47,690 nt of DNA from Magnetococcales bacterium (lineage in GTDB: Bacteria > Pseudomonadota > Magnetococcia > Magnetococcales > JADFZT01): assembly GCA_015232395.1 (NCBI GenBank), contig JADFZT010000036.1, positions 1 through 47,690 on the forward strand. Direction: 5' to 3'. How positions within the stretch are numbered: the stretch's first letter is position 1; each line of letters begins with the position of its first letter. Positions 21,358-28,262 of the stretch are shown here, in pieces. The notes beneath the pieces were generated by a model. That model had not been told where the DNA came from. It saw only the letters and a program-made list of their open reading frames with translations, and ran no database searches. Made by a program: the position numbers and the translations under genes.

Positions 21358-22386
21358 TCAGCCCCCGGCCACCTCACCCACCTGACTCCAATAGTCCGGC
21401 GGCAACTCAGTCGCCAACTTCAAGGCGCCCGCACATCCGGCATAGTCGGGATCCGCCACCCGGGAAATGTTCACCTCGCCGAAGTCACCCAAACGGCTGG
21501 CCAATGCCACATCCAATCCCCGAATCTTGGAACCACCACCCGCCAGGATGATGTTGCCCACCGCCTCTTCCTGATCTTCCGGATCAAAGGTGGTGACCAG
21601 CTCTTCCAGGCTATCGAGAATGTTGGGCACAATCGTCTCGCAAGCAGCGCGAACCTCCCGAGTCACATCATGGGGTACCGGCTTACCACCCGCCCGCAAC
21701 GTCACCACCACTTCCCCCGGAGGCTCACCCACAAAACCGTGGGCATCCTTGATTTTTTGGGCCAGAAACGGCGTCATCTGCACATCCGGATAGGACTCGG
21801 AGATGGCGGCTGCCAACACTTCGTCCACATAATCCCCCGCCTTGAGCAGGGTCAGCTGGTCGTCAACGCCAGGGATGTTGCCTTTCATGGCGGCGATGTC
21901 GATGGTGCCGGCGCCGATGTCGATGATGATGGCGTTGTTCAGTTTATTGAGACCATAGGCCACCATGAACGGCTCGGAAACCACCAGGGAGATATCCATC
22001 AAATCCTCGGTGATCCTGAGCAGCTGCCCTTTGTTGGTCACTGAGGCCCGGGCCGGTACGCCGACAATGCCGCACACCTGATCCCCGGGCCGGGGGTTGG
22101 CCAGGGTGATGACATGCTGAAGCAGTTCCCGAGCAGCCTGGGTCTGCTTTTCGCTGTCTTCCTTCAACACCCCTTCAGAGAGAGGAAAGCAGAGGTTCAT
22201 GAAAGAACGCTTTTCCAGGGCCTCTTCACCGATGGCGCTGGTGCGATTGAGAAGTTTGACACCGATAATGTCCCGGGGATAACCCACCACGGAACGAACC
22301 ATCTCCTTGGCACCCCGGTTGGACATGATGGTGGTCCGGGAGGTACCCAGATCGATGCCGAGAAACAGTTGATTGGAGTTATCCAT
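21358..22386 (-). CDS. mamK: Magnetosome actin-like protein MamK
   Basis: A 342-residue bacterial actin, the normal MamK length. The phosphate-1 motif is FLGIDLGTSRTTIM, the phosphate-2 motif IIIDIGAGTIDIAAMKG, and the adenosine motif NIILAGGGSKIRGL. MamK-like stretches include VVGYPRDIIGVKLL, VGVPARASVTNKGQLL and VVSEPFMVAYGLNKL; the closing ELPPDYWSQVGEV also matches. MamK polymerises into filaments that position and segregate the magnetosome chain. It lies 69 bases downstream of a mamJ-like gene in the same direction, the same relative order as in the Magnetospirillum mamAB operon, but without its usual neighbours mamE and mamL. The ribosome-binding site is GAGGGAG. A strong terminator follows. 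Confidence 0.95.
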   Translation of the reverse strand: MDNSNQLFLGIDLGTSRTTIMSNRGAKEMVRSVVGYPRDIIGVKLLNRTSAIGEEALEKRSFMNLCFPLSEGVLKEDSEKQTQAARELLQHVITLANPRPGDQVCGIVGVPARASVTNKGQLLRITEDLMDISLVVSEPFMVAYGLNKLNNAIIIDIGAGTIDIAAMKGNIPGVDDQLTLLKAGDYVDEVLAAAISESYPDVQMTPFLAQKIKDAHGFVGEPPGEVVVTLRAGGKPVPHDVTREVRAACETIVPNILDSLEELVTTFDPEDQEEAVGNIILAGGGSKIRGLDVALASRLGDFGEVNISRVADPDYAGCAGALKLATELPPDYWSQVGEVAGG

Positions 22387-22455
22387 ATTGCTCCCTCTTT
22401 AGCCTTCCAGGGGTGAAAACCATTGATTTCAAGCTAAACCTGAATCCCAGTTGGG

Positions 22456-24837
22456 TTAACAATGCCCCAGCTGAGCCCGCTCATCCGATTTTTTTTGCCC
22501 GTTGCCAAATCCCAACACCTCCGTGGCGATGCAGGTCATGGCTCCTCCCAGACAATTCAGGGTGCCCATGATCACCTGACCACCCCCTTTGAGGATCTGC
22601 CCCACGCCCCGCACCATGGCCATCACCCCATAGGAGACCCGACCGACCAGATCCGCTCCGGGAATCGACAGAGATTTGGAGGTGGTCCCACGGGGGGTGG
22701 ACTGGCTGCTTTTTTTGCGAAATGGCGCTGAAAGGGTGGCTGAAAAAAACCGCCCCGCCCCAATCACACCACCCACCATATCCCCCAGCAGGTGTACGAC
22801 ACCGGTGGCAAGCCCCTCAACGGGAATCGCCCGGGGCGCCAGACCCCTTTCCGGCTCCAGCACTTCACCCATCTGCACCCTCTCCTTGGACTGCCGGAAA
22901 AGGGTCGGATCCTCTGGAGAAAAGGGGGTGGGCATTGGGGTCGGGGTCGAAGCAGGAGAGGCTTTGACCTCTGCCTGGGGGGCCGCTACCTGGGGTGTTT
23001 CGGTCCGGGCGGCCATTTGAGGCGTTTCGGTCCGGGCGGCCACCTGGGGGGCCTTGGCGGTGGATTGAATGGTCGGCGCTTCCACCTGACCCGATTCCGG
23101 TTTCCAGGGGGAGAAGGGATCTTGAGAAACGGCTGCTTCCCCTTGGCCATCCGGATCGGCGAGATTTTGCCAAATCCGCTGTTTTTCCCCTTGGGCCGGG
23201 GTGACCGGGGTGACGAAGGGCACCTCTTGTGAGGCAGGGGGCTCCTCCGGGGCTTGCTCCCCGGCATCGACCGTTTGCACCTCGCTGGCAGACAGAATCA
23301 CCGTATCCTGATTCGCCAGCGTTGCTTCGACTGCGGCCCTTTCGGTGGATTCGGTAGATTCGGTGGATTTGACCTCTTCAGCCATGGCGATCAGTTGGGG
23401 GGCCTGCTCAGCGGCCTCTGCCTCAACCGGGTCTTTGATACCCTCCCGGGCCAAAGCGCCCAGATCTGATTCGGGCGCAGCCGACGAAAGAATGGCTTCC
23501 CCTTGGGTGGCTGCATCCTGCCCTTCCACCGGCGGGAGGGGGTCCAGATTGCGTACCGGTTTGATCAAACTTTGGGCGGCCAATTCAGCAAATGAAAGAC
23601 CATCCCCGGTGAGTTCCTCATCGCCAGCCACCTCCTCCAAAACCTGAATGGCGGTTTCGGCAGCGGTCACCGTGAGGGGGGTCTCATCTGCGGTTTCCTC
23701 GTTGGCAGCCTGCTGTTGGAGCGCCGGGGTCTCAGGGGCGCTGGGAGCCGGGGCCAGTGGAGTCGGGACTTCACTCTCCTTGCCGGGGGCATCGAAAAGA
23801 TCGTTGAGAATATCCGCCAGGTTGCCGTCACCAGCTTCCGCCACCTCCAGGGTCTCCCCACCGACACTTCCCTGGCTCTCTTCCCGACTCTGGGCCTCTT
23901 GGCCAACCCGCTCCCTGGATGGAACACTCTTGGGGAGGGGAATCGCCGCTTGCAGGGGCTCCACAAACGAACTGTCCGTGGCAGCCTGCTCCACCGGATC
24001 GCCGGTCATCACTCTTTGGGGGGGAGGCGCCTTCCTGAAAACGGTTTGTGAATTCACGGGTGCCACCTCCGAATCAGGCTCGGTGGAAGGCTCGGGGGGA
24101 GGCTCGGGGGGACGGGCCGTTTCGGGCAGGGTTTCCTGCTGAAGGCCCGGAATCTCTCCCGGAACATAGGGGATCGGGGAGCCGGCTTTATAGGCCCGGG
24201 TTCCCGTCTGGATACCGATCCGGCTTTTCCGACGCCCCCCCGGAAGCTCCTGGCCCGATCTGAGCAGGCCGGTTTCCGGAGAGCCGGGGCCAATTTCCAG
24301 CACCGAGCGACGCACCTGGGACAAATCGTCGTAAGCCTGGTTAAAGCGAAAGAGACTTGGTTGCAGGCCCCGGGGTCGATTCCGGGTGGTGGCAGGCTCG
24401 GTATCGGTGGCAGCGGGCAGGGAAGAAGCGCTACTTGCCTGGGCTTCCATCAGTTCGATGCCGGTTTCCGTGACCACTGGCGTGGGCGTATCACCCGATA
24501 TTTGGGAGGAGGCCCGAAAAGGTCCGGCGGCTTTTTCCACGCTGGGGGTCAGAGCCTGGCTATCCGGGGTTTGGGTGGGCTTTTCAGTCATGGGGCTTCT
24601 GGTCTCCTCGGTGGGTTCGGCCAGTTCGATTTCCCGGCTTTGGGCTTCCCCCTCCCCTGAAGGTGGGGAAAACCTTTTGCGGGCGTTCCAACTGGCATCC
24701 AAGCCTTTTCTTCTGTCCGCCACCCGGGTGGCCGCTGCGCGAAAGGCAGCCAAACCCTGTAACGTCTCCCCTCCCTGTGGGGTGGAAGTCTGGCTGGCTG
24801 GGGGATCGTTGCTGGGCGGTTCGTTCCCTTGAGACAT
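22456..24837 (-). CDS. mamJ: MamJ-like acidic repetitive protein upstream of mamK
   Basis: A 793-residue protein with AAGGAG before its ATG. A basic helical N-terminus (LAAFRAAATRVADRRKGLDA) is followed by about 600 residues rich in Glu, Ala, Pro, Thr and Ser, with short repeats such as AARTETPQ and STESTEST. The C-terminal ~130 residues turn hydrophobic and Gly-rich, in two parts: GVVHLLGDMVGGVIGAG and, near the end, GRVSYGVMAMVRGVGQILKG. In Magnetospirillum MamJ has the same plan, conserved ends around a central acidic repetitive region, and tethers magnetosomes to MamK filaments. This protein is nearly twice as long as known MamJ (about 426 residues in MSR-1), and sequence identity cannot be claimed. 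The name rests on architecture and position next to mamK. Confidence 0.6.
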   Translation of the reverse strand: MSQGNEPPSNDPPASQTSTPQGGETLQGLAAFRAAATRVADRRKGLDASWNARKRFSPPSGEGEAQSREIELAEPTEETRSPMTEKPTQTPDSQALTPSVEKAAGPFRASSQISGDTPTPVVTETGIELMEAQASSASSLPAATDTEPATTRNRPRGLQPSLFRFNQAYDDLSQVRRSVLEIGPGSPETGLLRSGQELPGGRRKSRIGIQTGTRAYKAGSPIPYVPGEIPGLQQETLPETARPPEPPPEPSTEPDSEVAPVNSQTVFRKAPPPQRVMTGDPVEQAATDSSFVEPLQAAIPLPKSVPSRERVGQEAQSREESQGSVGGETLEVAEAGDGNLADILNDLFDAPGKESEVPTPLAPAPSAPETPALQQQAANEETADETPLTVTAAETAIQVLEEVAGDEELTGDGLSFAELAAQSLIKPVRNLDPLPPVEGQDAATQGEAILSSAAPESDLGALAREGIKDPVEAEAAEQAPQLIAMAEEVKSTESTESTERAAVEATLANQDTVILSASEVQTVDAGEQAPEEPPASQEVPFVTPVTPAQGEKQRIWQNLADPDGQGEAAVSQDPFSPWKPESGQVEAPTIQSTAKAPQVAARTETPQMAARTETPQVAAPQAEVKASPASTPTPMPTPFSPEDPTLFRQSKERVQMGEVLEPERGLAPRAIPVEGLATGVVHLLGDMVGGVIGAGRFFSATLSAPFRKKSSQSTPRGTTSKSLSIPGADLVGRVSYGVMAMVRGVGQILKGGGQVIMGTLNCLGGAMTCIATEVLGFGNGQKKSDERAQLGHC

Positions 24838-25355
24838 CAGAACTCCTTGAAAATATGGACCTGCCCGGAAAGATTAAAACCCGCCGGACGGAAATTTTTA
24901 CCTCATCAACCTTTGAGCGATCCCACCTTCAGCAGGGGATTTCCGGATCAAGCCCCTCTTCTGATGGCACGGGGATTTCCCTTTGGGGCAGCGCCACAGC
25001 TGGCTTTTCCCTGGATTATGTTGGAATCGAATTGGATCAAAGAGAAGGGGGAATGGTGAGTGGTTTTACCGGAGTCACCTCCCCGACAACCCCAGCCATC
25101 CCAACCTGCTTCCCCCTGCCGCTCCAAACCCCATCACAGACGCTCAATGACAGCTGTCCAACATCGCAACATAGGCCACTTTAACCCTGTTTTCAACCGA
25201 TTTTTCATCTGATACAGGGTAGCTGGAAAGATCCGACGGGATCGATATCACTCCTCGCAACCATTTCAAGCAACCTTCCAGGAAGAGATAACCTCTAAAA
25301 TGAGACCGCTTCCAACGGGAAGGCGTCCTGATCGGATCCTGACCGCTGAAACCAC
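24838..25355. other. Spacer upstream of mamJ-like gene
   Basis: About 518 bases with no confident gene. A leftward frame starting with TTG at 25359 overlaps the coiled-coil gene's stop but reads poorly. The promoter of the mamJ-mamK unit should be in the part near 24838; no clear sigma-70 or sigma-54 site was identified. Confidence 0.45.
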
Positions 25356-25592
25356 TCAAGCGATCATTTCCCGGATCGTTTTTTCCAGAAGTGAACGAAT
25401 CTTCTCCATTGTTTCCCCCCGATCCCCGGCAGCCTCACCCATCAGGTCAGTCACGGGTTGCAGTTCCGCCATGATCTTCTCCCCAAGCCCGGTGTTGAGT
25501 CGCTGTAGTTTTCGTTCATATTCGAGATCAAACTGTTTTTGCAGCCGGACTTTTTCTGCATCCATCCACTGTTGCAGATTTTGGATGACCAT
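25356..25592 (-). CDS. Small coiled-coil protein next to mamD
   Basis: A predicted product of about 78 residues beginning MVIQNLQQWMDAEKVRLQKQ, almost entirely heptad-like helix with many Lys, Arg, Glu and Leu and no cysteines. The ATG at 25592 is chosen because the coiled-coil reading begins there; GGAG lies 11 bases upstream, slightly far. The frame is open further upstream and would add a hydrophobic stretch (LSIVLIISLILLQYV), so a longer membrane-anchored form is possible. It lies between the mamJ-like gene and divergent mamD. No family recognised. Confidence 0.5.
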   Translation of the reverse strand: MVIQNLQQWMDAEKVRLQKQFDLEYERKLQRLNTGLGEKIMAELQPVTDLMGEAAGDRGETMEKIRSLLEKTIREMIA

Positions 25593-25887
25593 GAAAAATT
25601 TTGCTCCGGACACTGTCACATACTGCAACAATATCAATGAGATTATCAAAACAATAGACAATTCATGAAAATCACGACGGCGGTGTCGGCCCCTTCTTAA
25701 AACAGACAGCCCGACATTTTTCTCCCCCAAGGATGGCAAAAAAGGGTGTGAAAAGGGGATTTTTCTGGAAAACAGGCATCTATTTTGATAACTTCTTGTG
25801 TCTTGTTAACGTAGGAGCGCTCTTTGACGCTTCACGATCAACTCTAAATTTCAAACCGAAAACCGGGATTCTTGAGGGAGATAACCC

Positions 25888-26886
25888 ATGCCTGCAAAAA
25901 CCATGATGTTCAAGGTACAAGGGGCCGCACAATCATCCAAGCTCGGCGGCATGGCTGGCAAAACCTACACGGTGGGTAAAGTCTCCTCTGCCGGTAACGG
26001 GCTTGCCAACTGGCTTTTTCTCTCTCCCACCGGTGGTGCAGGTGGCAGCTCCATGGCCGTCAAGATCGAAGGCACCCGGCAGGTTTCCCAAATAGCAGGT
26101 CTCGCTGGCAAAACCGTCACGGTGGGTAAATCCCCCACCATGCTGGGAGGTATCGGCCAATGGTTGGTGCTCTCCCCGGCGAAAGGCGCCGCCGCTGCGG
26201 GGGCTGCCGGAGCCACCGGAGCTGGAGCCGCTGCCAAGGCTGCTACCACCACCTCCTTCATGATGCAGGTGGAAGGAGCTGCTCAGGCCACGCAACTGCC
26301 AGCACTTTCAGGTAAAACCTTCACCGTCATGAAGCCACCCATGATGGGTGCTCCCGCTCAAAAATGGCTCTTCCTTCAGCCCACTGCCGGAACCAGCACT
26401 GGCAAGGGAATGGTCGCCTTGAAGCTACAACATGGTGCTGCCGGGCAACTCTCCTCCCTCGCTGGCAAAACCGTTACCATCTCCAAAGCCCCCATCGCCG
26501 CAGCTGGTGCGGGCAAATGGATCATCATGAAGCCGGTGGGTGGCGCAGCCGCCAAAGCCGCAGCCGGAATTGGCGCAGCCGGAGCCGGAGCTGCCCTGAA
26601 CGCTCAACCCATCGCCTTTACCACAGCAGTTCCTGCTGCCGGGGCTGGAGCTGGCGCCGGTGCAGGCACCACCCAGGCTGCCGCTGGAGCCGCCAACACC
26701 GCCAAAGCCGTAGGCGCTTCCGGCACCATCTGGAAGGGAACCGGTCTGAGCCTTGGCCTGGGCCTGGGACTCGGAGCCTGGGGGCCTGCGCTGATTGCAG
26801 GGGCCGCCATCGCGGGTGTGGGTGTCTATGGTTATCTCAAGGGCAAGGATGCCAACGATGGAGAGCTGGAAGCACTGATCTCCTGA
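25888..26886 (+). CDS. mamD: Magnetosome biomineralisation protein MamD (Mms7-like)
   Basis: A 332-residue protein with GAGGGAG before the ATG. Four repeats of ~47 residues fill the front half (about 6-53, 56-101, 123-169, 173-219). Each has a [LM][AS]GKT[YVF]T[VI] core followed by a W[LI][FVI][LM]xP strand. An Ala/Gly-rich stretch leads to the C-terminal module: GTIWKGTGLSLGLGLGLGAW at 279-298, then GP and a hydrophobic helix ending in the charged tail YLKGKDANDGELEA. This Leu-Gly repeat plus AWGP is the hallmark shared by Mms6, MamG and MamD, proteins tightly bound to magnetite that affect crystal size. Length is near the 314 residues of known MamD. It is divergent from the mamJ-K unit and ends at a strong terminator. 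Confidence 0.92.
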   Translation: MPAKTMMFKVQGAAQSSKLGGMAGKTYTVGKVSSAGNGLANWLFLSPTGGAGGSSMAVKIEGTRQVSQIAGLAGKTVTVGKSPTMLGGIGQWLVLSPAKGAAAAGAAGATGAGAAAKAATTTSFMMQVEGAAQATQLPALSGKTFTVMKPPMMGAPAQKWLFLQPTAGTSTGKGMVALKLQHGAAGQLSSLAGKTVTISKAPIAAAGAGKWIIMKPVGGAAAKAAAGIGAAGAGAALNAQPIAFTTAVPAAGAGAGAGAGTTQAAAGAANTAKAVGASGTIWKGTGLSLGLGLGLGAWGPALIAGAAIAGVGVYGYLKGKDANDGELEALIS

Positions 26887-27455: not shown

Positions 27456-27989
27456 TCAATAGCCCCCCCGACGCATCCGGTTTTCCATGCTCCGCCGCTT
27501 TTGACCCTCCATGTGACCCTGCCCCTGACCCTGACTGGGACGACGCATCCACAAACCAGCACCACTCTCAGGATTGCGCAACTTGATCTCAGCAGAACCC
27601 CGGGTAATGGTGGCAGCATAAAGATTTTGCTCCCCAGCATTATGGAAAGCCGAACCCAAAATCGAAAGCTGCTCCCCCTCCTTAAAATCAAACTTTTTCA
27701 AATCCACATACCACTGAGGAGCCACATGGACGTTATAATAGCCCTCATCAGCAGTCTTGAAAGAAAGGTGCAAACCATCCTCATTCATATCAGGGTTGCG
27801 GACCGTCTCAACCCCCTTGATCTCCCCCTGGACGGTTTTAACTGTACCTTTGGCATAGTCCACCATCCCCCCACCATCACCGTCCCCAGTGGGATAGAGC
27901 CCCTGAGCCTGAACCGATGTGGGCAGCCACATCAGAGCTATGGCCAATAAAATGGTGCTTACAGATAAAAAACGATCTTTCTGCTGCAT
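27456..27989 (-). CDS. Exported OB-fold-like protein
   Basis: A 177-residue product from the ATG at 27987-27989, with GGGGG upstream and a clean signal peptide ending VQAQ. The mature part (about 40-140) reads like the small beta-barrel proteins often found next to redox and respiratory genes: a KGTVKTVQGEIKGVE strand, YYNVHVAPQWYVDLKKFDFK, a G-E-Q-L-x-I-x-G turn and YAATITRGSAEIKLRNPE. The C-terminal ~30 residues are rich in Arg, Gln, Gly and Met (QGQGQGHMEGQKRRSMENRM) and look disordered. No metal motif is seen. It lies next to the 71-bp array beyond mamD; a link to magnetosome formation is only positional. Confidence 0.7.
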   Translation of the reverse strand: MQQKDRFLSVSTILLAIALMWLPTSVQAQGLYPTGDGDGGGMVDYAKGTVKTVQGEIKGVETVRNPDMNEDGLHLSFKTADEGYYNVHVAPQWYVDLKKFDFKEGEQLSILGSAFHNAGEQNLYAATITRGSAEIKLRNPESGAGLWMRRPSQGQGQGHMEGQKRRSMENRMRRGGY

Positions 27990-28262
27990 GACAAACCCCC
28001 TTTTTTTGGTCAAACGAAACAAGGGGACCAATCATTGGTGGATGTGCCTTGTTGGAAAAAAATCCCACCCAAGCCCCCCCTGCGAAACCTCTATTTTACC
28101 AGAGCGCCCATAGGCAATCCACACGTATCTCCTGCCAGGAAACTCAGCCCAAAAAAGGCTATCCAACCCTCAGAAATCATTTTTTCCTTAATCTTCCCAG
28201 CCAACGAACCGATCAGTAGTGCAAAGAGGGAAACAAAACAAAAATGGTCTCCGGAGGAAATC

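Follow-up and report, generated by a model that had tools for sequence, protein, structure and literature searches.

A detached mamK with a probable MamJ-type gene upstream, next to mamD, in a draft genome of the Magnetococcia

Introduction

Does a long gene directly upstream of mamK, in a stretch of DNA without the mamAB genes, encode a MamJ-type adaptor in a class of bacteria thought to lack MamJ? MamJ tethers magnetosomes to MamK in Magnetospirillum and its relatives. Its gene has been described as occurring only in Magnetospirillum (PMC9840458), as absent from MC-1 (PMC2818848) and as not found in 'Ca. Etaproteobacteria' (PMC6783814), and from such reports came the idea that magnetosomes are held differently in magnetococci. 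Overlooked MamJ-like proteins have nevertheless been suspected, and one protein, Mg-1g50, acts like MamJ (PMC10653835). An earlier note on the DNA analyzed here had guessed, from its design only, that a 793-residue protein encoded just upstream of mamK is MamJ-like, and had offered two accounts of its setting: magnetosome genes split into separate clusters, or a second mamK locus.

Results

The window (the whole stretch analyzed, 47,690 nucleotides) is one complete contig, C36, of a 4.94-Mb draft genome of the class Magnetococcia (G000; 170 contigs, 99% complete, 1.2% contaminated). All three open reading frames (ORFs) named in the earlier note are present, and its identification of mamK and mamD holds, both lying over the curated NCBIfam cut-offs. 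The detached mamK (21,358–22,386, minus strand) encodes an actin-like filament protein of 342 aa that scores 504.8 bits against NF040964 (cut-off 400), matches the AMB-1 MamK structures 5ljw and 5jyg with an E-value of about 1e-117, is 52% identical to AMB-1 MamK and keeps the actin-type nucleotide-binding motifs GIDLGTS, SEPFM and DIGAGT; by sequence, it is a standard member of the MamK family. The mamJ-like gene (22,456–24,837, minus strand; 793 aa) lies directly upstream on the same strand, with 69 bp between its end and mamK. It matches nothing in Pfam or NCBIfam and was recognized by a C-terminal domain that directly precedes a mamK in 42 of the 48 Magnetococcia genomes searched. On the plus strand and thus divergent from this J-K unit, as had been noted, mamD (25,888–26,886; 332 aa) begins about 1.05 kb away, scores 303.9 bits against NF040916 (cut-off 100) and is 53% identical to a second, full mamD on contig C47. 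A small helical ORF without clear relatives (25,356–25,739, minus strand) lies between the mamJ-like gene and mamD.

No mamE, mamL, mamM, mamO, mamP, mamA, mamQ or mamB was found in the flanking sequence (21.4 kb and 20.8 kb), which consists of ordinary genes. The absence of the usual neighbors is thus borne out with one qualification: a 191-aa ORF adjoining mamD (27,456–28,031, minus strand) shows a weak resemblance to MamS (32 bits, E 1e-7), far under the MamS cut-off of 200 bits, and is the sole further hint of a magnetosome gene on the contig.

The mam genes of this genome are spread over at least nine contigs. Contig C6 ends in mamH-mamI-mamE, with mamE cut off by the contig end; C3 ends in a second mamI-mamE pair; C54 starts inside an mmsF-like gene and continues with mamL-mamM-mamO-mamP-mamA-mamQ-mamB; and C5, C35 and C73 carry short MamD/Mms6/MamG-like ORFs. 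The two mamI-mamE pairs (C3:27-1757 and C6:1-1457) reach their contig ends in or near magnetochrome-type repeats, and they may possibly represent two mamAB-type clusters that the assembly has split. Two further MamKs were identified, on C5 (81% identical to the window MamK), where the gene lies behind mms6-like and mmsF-like genes, and on C49 (66%). Because mam genes are scattered over many contigs and additional mamKs lie on C5 and C49, the two accounts offered earlier are both true. In related genomes mamK sits between mamE and mmsF, and because in G000 this interval coincides with the break between C6 or C3 and C54, a core mamK may have been left out of the assembly. Continuation of a mamAB operon past an assembly break, raised earlier as a reason to doubt the locus, does not apply to the window contig; it is the core mamAB elsewhere in the genome that is broken, at the expected mamK site.

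Such a fragmented draft, in which contig ends are reached by both mamE copies (C6, C3) and by mmsF (C54), could lead one to suspect that the detached layout is an artefact of assembly or binning and that the pair comes from a mamAB operon or another organism. We consider this very improbable, as the pair is flanked on both sides by more than 20 kb of ordinary genes within one contig, so that an assembly break at the window was rejected, contamination is 1.2%, and the three MamKs of this genome group together in a MamK tree (98% SH-aLRT). Detached pairs also occur in other genomes. In the tree, the three G000 proteins join J-linked MamKs from detached loci in families f6 and f14 (99% SH-aLRT for a set of 11, 89% for a set of 14), separate from the core MamKs that those genomes carry, and the window MamK, standard though it is, thus belongs to a group drawn from detached J-K loci. 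Two more detached pairs, in f12, fall elsewhere in the tree. The set of 14 amounts, with moderate support, to a MamK lineage of its own for detached pairs. The earlier note had called a module of chain-positioning genes plus mamD an unusual partition; the module itself stands, its uniqueness does not, since detached pairs are found in two other families, one such locus with mamD 3.5 kb downstream (genome G008, f6), and comparable arrangements are the magnetotaxis islet of AMB-1 and mamDFHK of MV-1.

That the detached MamKs are their own lineage in genomes that retain a core mamK also fits a different reading, in which the pair has taken on another task, for example placing some other organelle or a cluster of proteins, and the magnetosomes are served by a core mamK of mamAB that was not assembled. 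Some detached loci elsewhere adjoin transmembrane proteins with OmpA or SPOR domains, which would suit such a task, but mamD adjoins the pair both in the window and in G008, and the window MamK retains its 52% identity to AMB-1 MamK; we thus regard recruitment as quite unlikely. The OmpA or SPOR matches, all weak, are to ORFs near detached J-K loci or mamAB (L178:9638-10876, L204:11309-12664, L221:1647-2777 and L019:1549-2547), and several of these proteins have one N-terminal transmembrane stretch; it is possible that they are cell-wall anchors for the filament system. Separately, small ORFs of about 100–110 aa lie downstream of detached mamKs (L176:8195-8527, L178:4746-5078, L203:2118-2408 and L212:8296-8616); they contain the first half of the J domain only and are among the best MamJ matches.

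In the 793-aa protein, an acidic linker connects a short N-terminal module to a C-terminal domain that is rich in glycine. The module (aa 25–48, TLQGLAAFRAAATRVADRRKG; 24,694–24,765, minus strand) carries the motif G[IVL]xA[FLMY][RKQ]x[AVT]. The module (LQGLAAFRAAATRVADRRK) is found again in 16 family members from seven families, and the motif lies near the N-terminus of these and of a MamK fusion on C49; the remaining members have other N-termini. The variable linker (about aa 60–640; 22,918–24,660, minus strand) is rich in Pro, Glu and Ala, with a pI of 4.67 and a net charge of -11 over aa 61–300 and a pI of 4.05 and a net charge of -42 over aa 301–640. This acidity is not family-wide, several members having a pI of 9–10, and the middle regions of the family vary widely in length and charge. 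The C-terminal domain (aa 671–775, IPVEGLATGVVHLLGDMVGGV ... GVGQILKGGGQVIMGTL; 22,513–22,827, minus strand) was modeled by AlphaFold2 as two helices with low confidence (mean pLDDT 61.9; about 80 for the first helix) and has no Pfam or PDB relatives beyond chance. Within the linker, a segment at aa 554–579 (23,101–23,178; RIWQNLADPDGQGEAAVSQDPFSPWK) loosely resembles the MamJ N-terminal motif (W..L...SPW), a likeness that may be due to chance because it is present in one family member only.

A single-sequence search of 48 Magnetococcia genomes recovered relatives of the C-terminal ~130 aa, mostly directly upstream of mamK, and an iterative profile search converged at 61 ORFs; we call the family that shares this domain the J family. 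A profile of 40 C-terminal domains (A2), searched genome-wide, had matches in 44 of the 48 genomes, including all 27 of high quality and all 17 genera; the four genomes without a match are 75–88% complete. The window domain matches A2 with an E-value of 9.9e-35, though it is itself a member of that alignment, its relatives having been found independently by the single-sequence search. Strong matches lay directly upstream of a mamK in 41 of 48 cases, and all matches in 50 of 82; viewed from the other side, 50 of 81 mamKs have a J gene upstream and 31 do not, and a J-K pair is present in 42 of the 48 genomes.

The usual order in Magnetococcia mamAB clusters is mamH-I-E-J-K-mmsF-L-M-O-A, in which the slot between mamE and mamK is the position of mamJ in Magnetospirillum. 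Most other Magnetococcia family members occupy that slot, whereas the window pair has no mamAB genes around it. Eleven core loci, among them the DCbin4 type, have mamE followed by mamK without a J gene directly before it, and in seven of these genomes a J-K pair is found elsewhere. The UR-1 gene between mamE and mamK has the same C-terminal domain (L174, E 2.8e-31 in the profile search). In the single-contig genome G037, presumably that of Magnetococcus marinus MC-1, a 1254-aa ORF (G037:C1:2895338-2899102; L275:5339-9103, minus strand) combines the N-terminal module with the MamJ-type C-terminal motif; the gap to the preceding mamE is 59 bp, and mamK follows after about 8.5 kb. Judged by these domains, both this ORF and the UR-1 protein, Maq1, are members of the J family.

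Whether the family is related to MamJ was addressed at the level of the C-terminal domain; the full-length proteins do not align with MamJ. The C-termini of 15 distinct alphaproteobacterial MamJ proteins share EVPVEDLLGGIFGVAGSAVRGVF...VVKGGRLVGSNVV, and aligned with these by hhalign the 40 Magnetococcia domains gave a probability of 94.6, an E-value of 6.8e-8 and a score of 48.1, against a maximum of 20.05 among 150 column-shuffled controls and 16.9 for the reversed control; the homologous core is short (36 columns) and glycine-rich. When a MamJ profile was searched against 9,367 ORFs from Magnetococcia loci, a background that is not genome-wide because the loci were mostly picked for mamK, the top 30 hits were all J family members (best E-value 2.2e-10, window 0.0013). 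This profile scored at least 10 bits with 33 of the 40 real domains and with 5 of 8,000 shuffled ones, and gave 27.3 bits for the window domain against 13.2 for the best of 8,000 shuffles. Composition does not explain the match, as shuffled domains so rarely reach 10 bits. In the reverse direction, the best or near-best genome-wide match of the Magnetococcia profile in other phyla was often the gene before mamK (Nitrospinota, Gamma- and Zetaproteobacteria, a Nitrospirae bin and the MamJ of Telmatospirillum), several with marginal E-values; the MamJ of UT-4 was not found by this genome-wide search.

Two MamJ motifs have been described, VPVEX4GXFX2AXSA at the C-terminus and DXWX2LLEXSPWS at the N-terminus (PMC2818848). 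The former is present in the window domain at the profile level, its exact form being partly kept (IPVEGLATGVVHLLGDM); the latter is absent from the N-terminus of the window protein, where a different module is found, and it is not supported as a J family feature. Given these dissimilar N-termini, the variable middles, and a matching core that is short and compositionally biased, one could propose that the 793-aa protein is linked to MamK but of separate origin, with a glycine-rich 'PVE-L-G' helix that came to resemble that of MamJ by convergence, for example through a common need to bind lipid or filament. We find this unlikely, since the composition controls do not reproduce the real scores, the MamJ search returned family members in each of its top 30 places, and the family occupies the same position between mamE and mamK. 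What had been a guess from design now draws on reciprocal profile matches of the C-terminal domain with shuffled and reversed controls, and on the mamE-J-mamK order of most Magnetococcia mamAB clusters, and these support a MamJ-type homology of that domain.

The additional mamK on C49 was initially seen as a mere 771-aa open frame matching PF06723, a description that we replaced: it is a 757-aa ORF (C49:3041-5314, L221) in which the N-terminal module and a Pro/Ala/Glu-rich linker are fused to a full MamK starting at aa 410. The contig holds a J-domain ORF as well, apart from the fusion (C49:148-993). The fusion ties the N-terminal module to MamK function, and because MamK replaces the C-terminal domain in it, our guess is that the C-terminal domain is the end that docks on MamK. 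In MSR-1, interaction has been assigned to the N-terminal region as well (PMC10653835). An apparent fusion of 576 aa in another genome (G020) was rejected, its extra N-terminal stretch appearing to be non-coding.

Discussion

We conclude, with a probability of about 0.8, that the MamJ-like gene and mamK of the window are a detached MamJ-MamK pair with which a magnetotactic coccus positions its chains. MamK (342 aa) would form an actin-like filament, and the 793-aa protein would be a MamJ-type adaptor in which the N-terminal module and a mostly helical C-terminal domain are joined by a long, poorly conserved acidic tether. By analogy with MamJ and with Mg-1g50 of MV-1, it would link magnetosomes to the window MamK filament and tune that filament, and the mamD product would be a magnetosome membrane protein of the MamD/Mms6 type. 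Binding of the 793-aa protein to MamK, the tethering itself, co-transcription of the two genes and the assignment of binding partners to either end are what we infer from this arrangement.

Each of the known systems resembles the window in part. Like the window gene, mamJ lies directly upstream of mamK and encodes a protein with conserved ends and a variable acidic middle, including a C-terminal helix of the VPVE-x4-G type followed by a later KGG segment; however, MamJ is about 390–510 aa rather than 793, and the window protein has a different N-terminal module and is encoded outside mamAB. A similar arrangement is that of Magnetovibrio blakemorei MV-1, in which the MamJ-like Mg-1g50 is encoded directly upstream of a second mamK (MamK-II) in an operon with mamD (mamDFHK) rather than mamAB (PMC10653835). 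Mg-1g50, which works with its MamK in M. gryphiswaldense (PMC10653835), is only 289 aa and without the long linker, a comparison that we make by description only. The AMB-1 islet, lying outside the main island, also holds an additional mamK along with relatives of mamD and mamJ, but it spans 22 kb, where seven mam-like genes are found together with transposases, and its mamJ-like gene does not adjoin the mamK-like gene (PMC2818848). Maq1 of 'Ca. Magnetaquicoccus inordinatus' UR-1 (PMC6783814) shares the C-terminal domain of the window protein but is encoded at the core mamAB position and has a different N-terminal module. It has a homologue in HHB-1 (PMC12791574), and it has been left without an assigned function and not called MamJ-like (PMC6783814, PMC12791574). 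In the literature within our reach, which left out most subscription papers, we found no prior link of the Magnetococcia J family or Maq1 to MamJ.

More tentatively, and with less than even odds, the Magnetococcia may possess several parallel MamJ-MamK systems, with a dedicated adaptor bearing its own N-terminal module for each MamK and separate filaments that position separate chains or magnetosome subsets within one cell; one system of this genome would have fused the module to MamK and so dispensed with a separate tether.

What is new here, as far as sequences can tell, is a MamJ-type protein that is detached, long and equipped with a new N-terminal module, and that comes from a class believed to have no MamJ. 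That a family with a common C-terminal domain occurs in the mamJ position across the class suggests that the MamJ-type tether is old and widespread, and that it was overlooked because only a short end is conserved. The members of the J family are thus named candidates for the missing magnetococcal adaptor, and Maq1 is recast among them. A link has been reported between the number of mamK copies and the number of chains; it can now be tested pair by pair, and with the J-K pairs the question of how magnetococci hold their magnets in place becomes testable.
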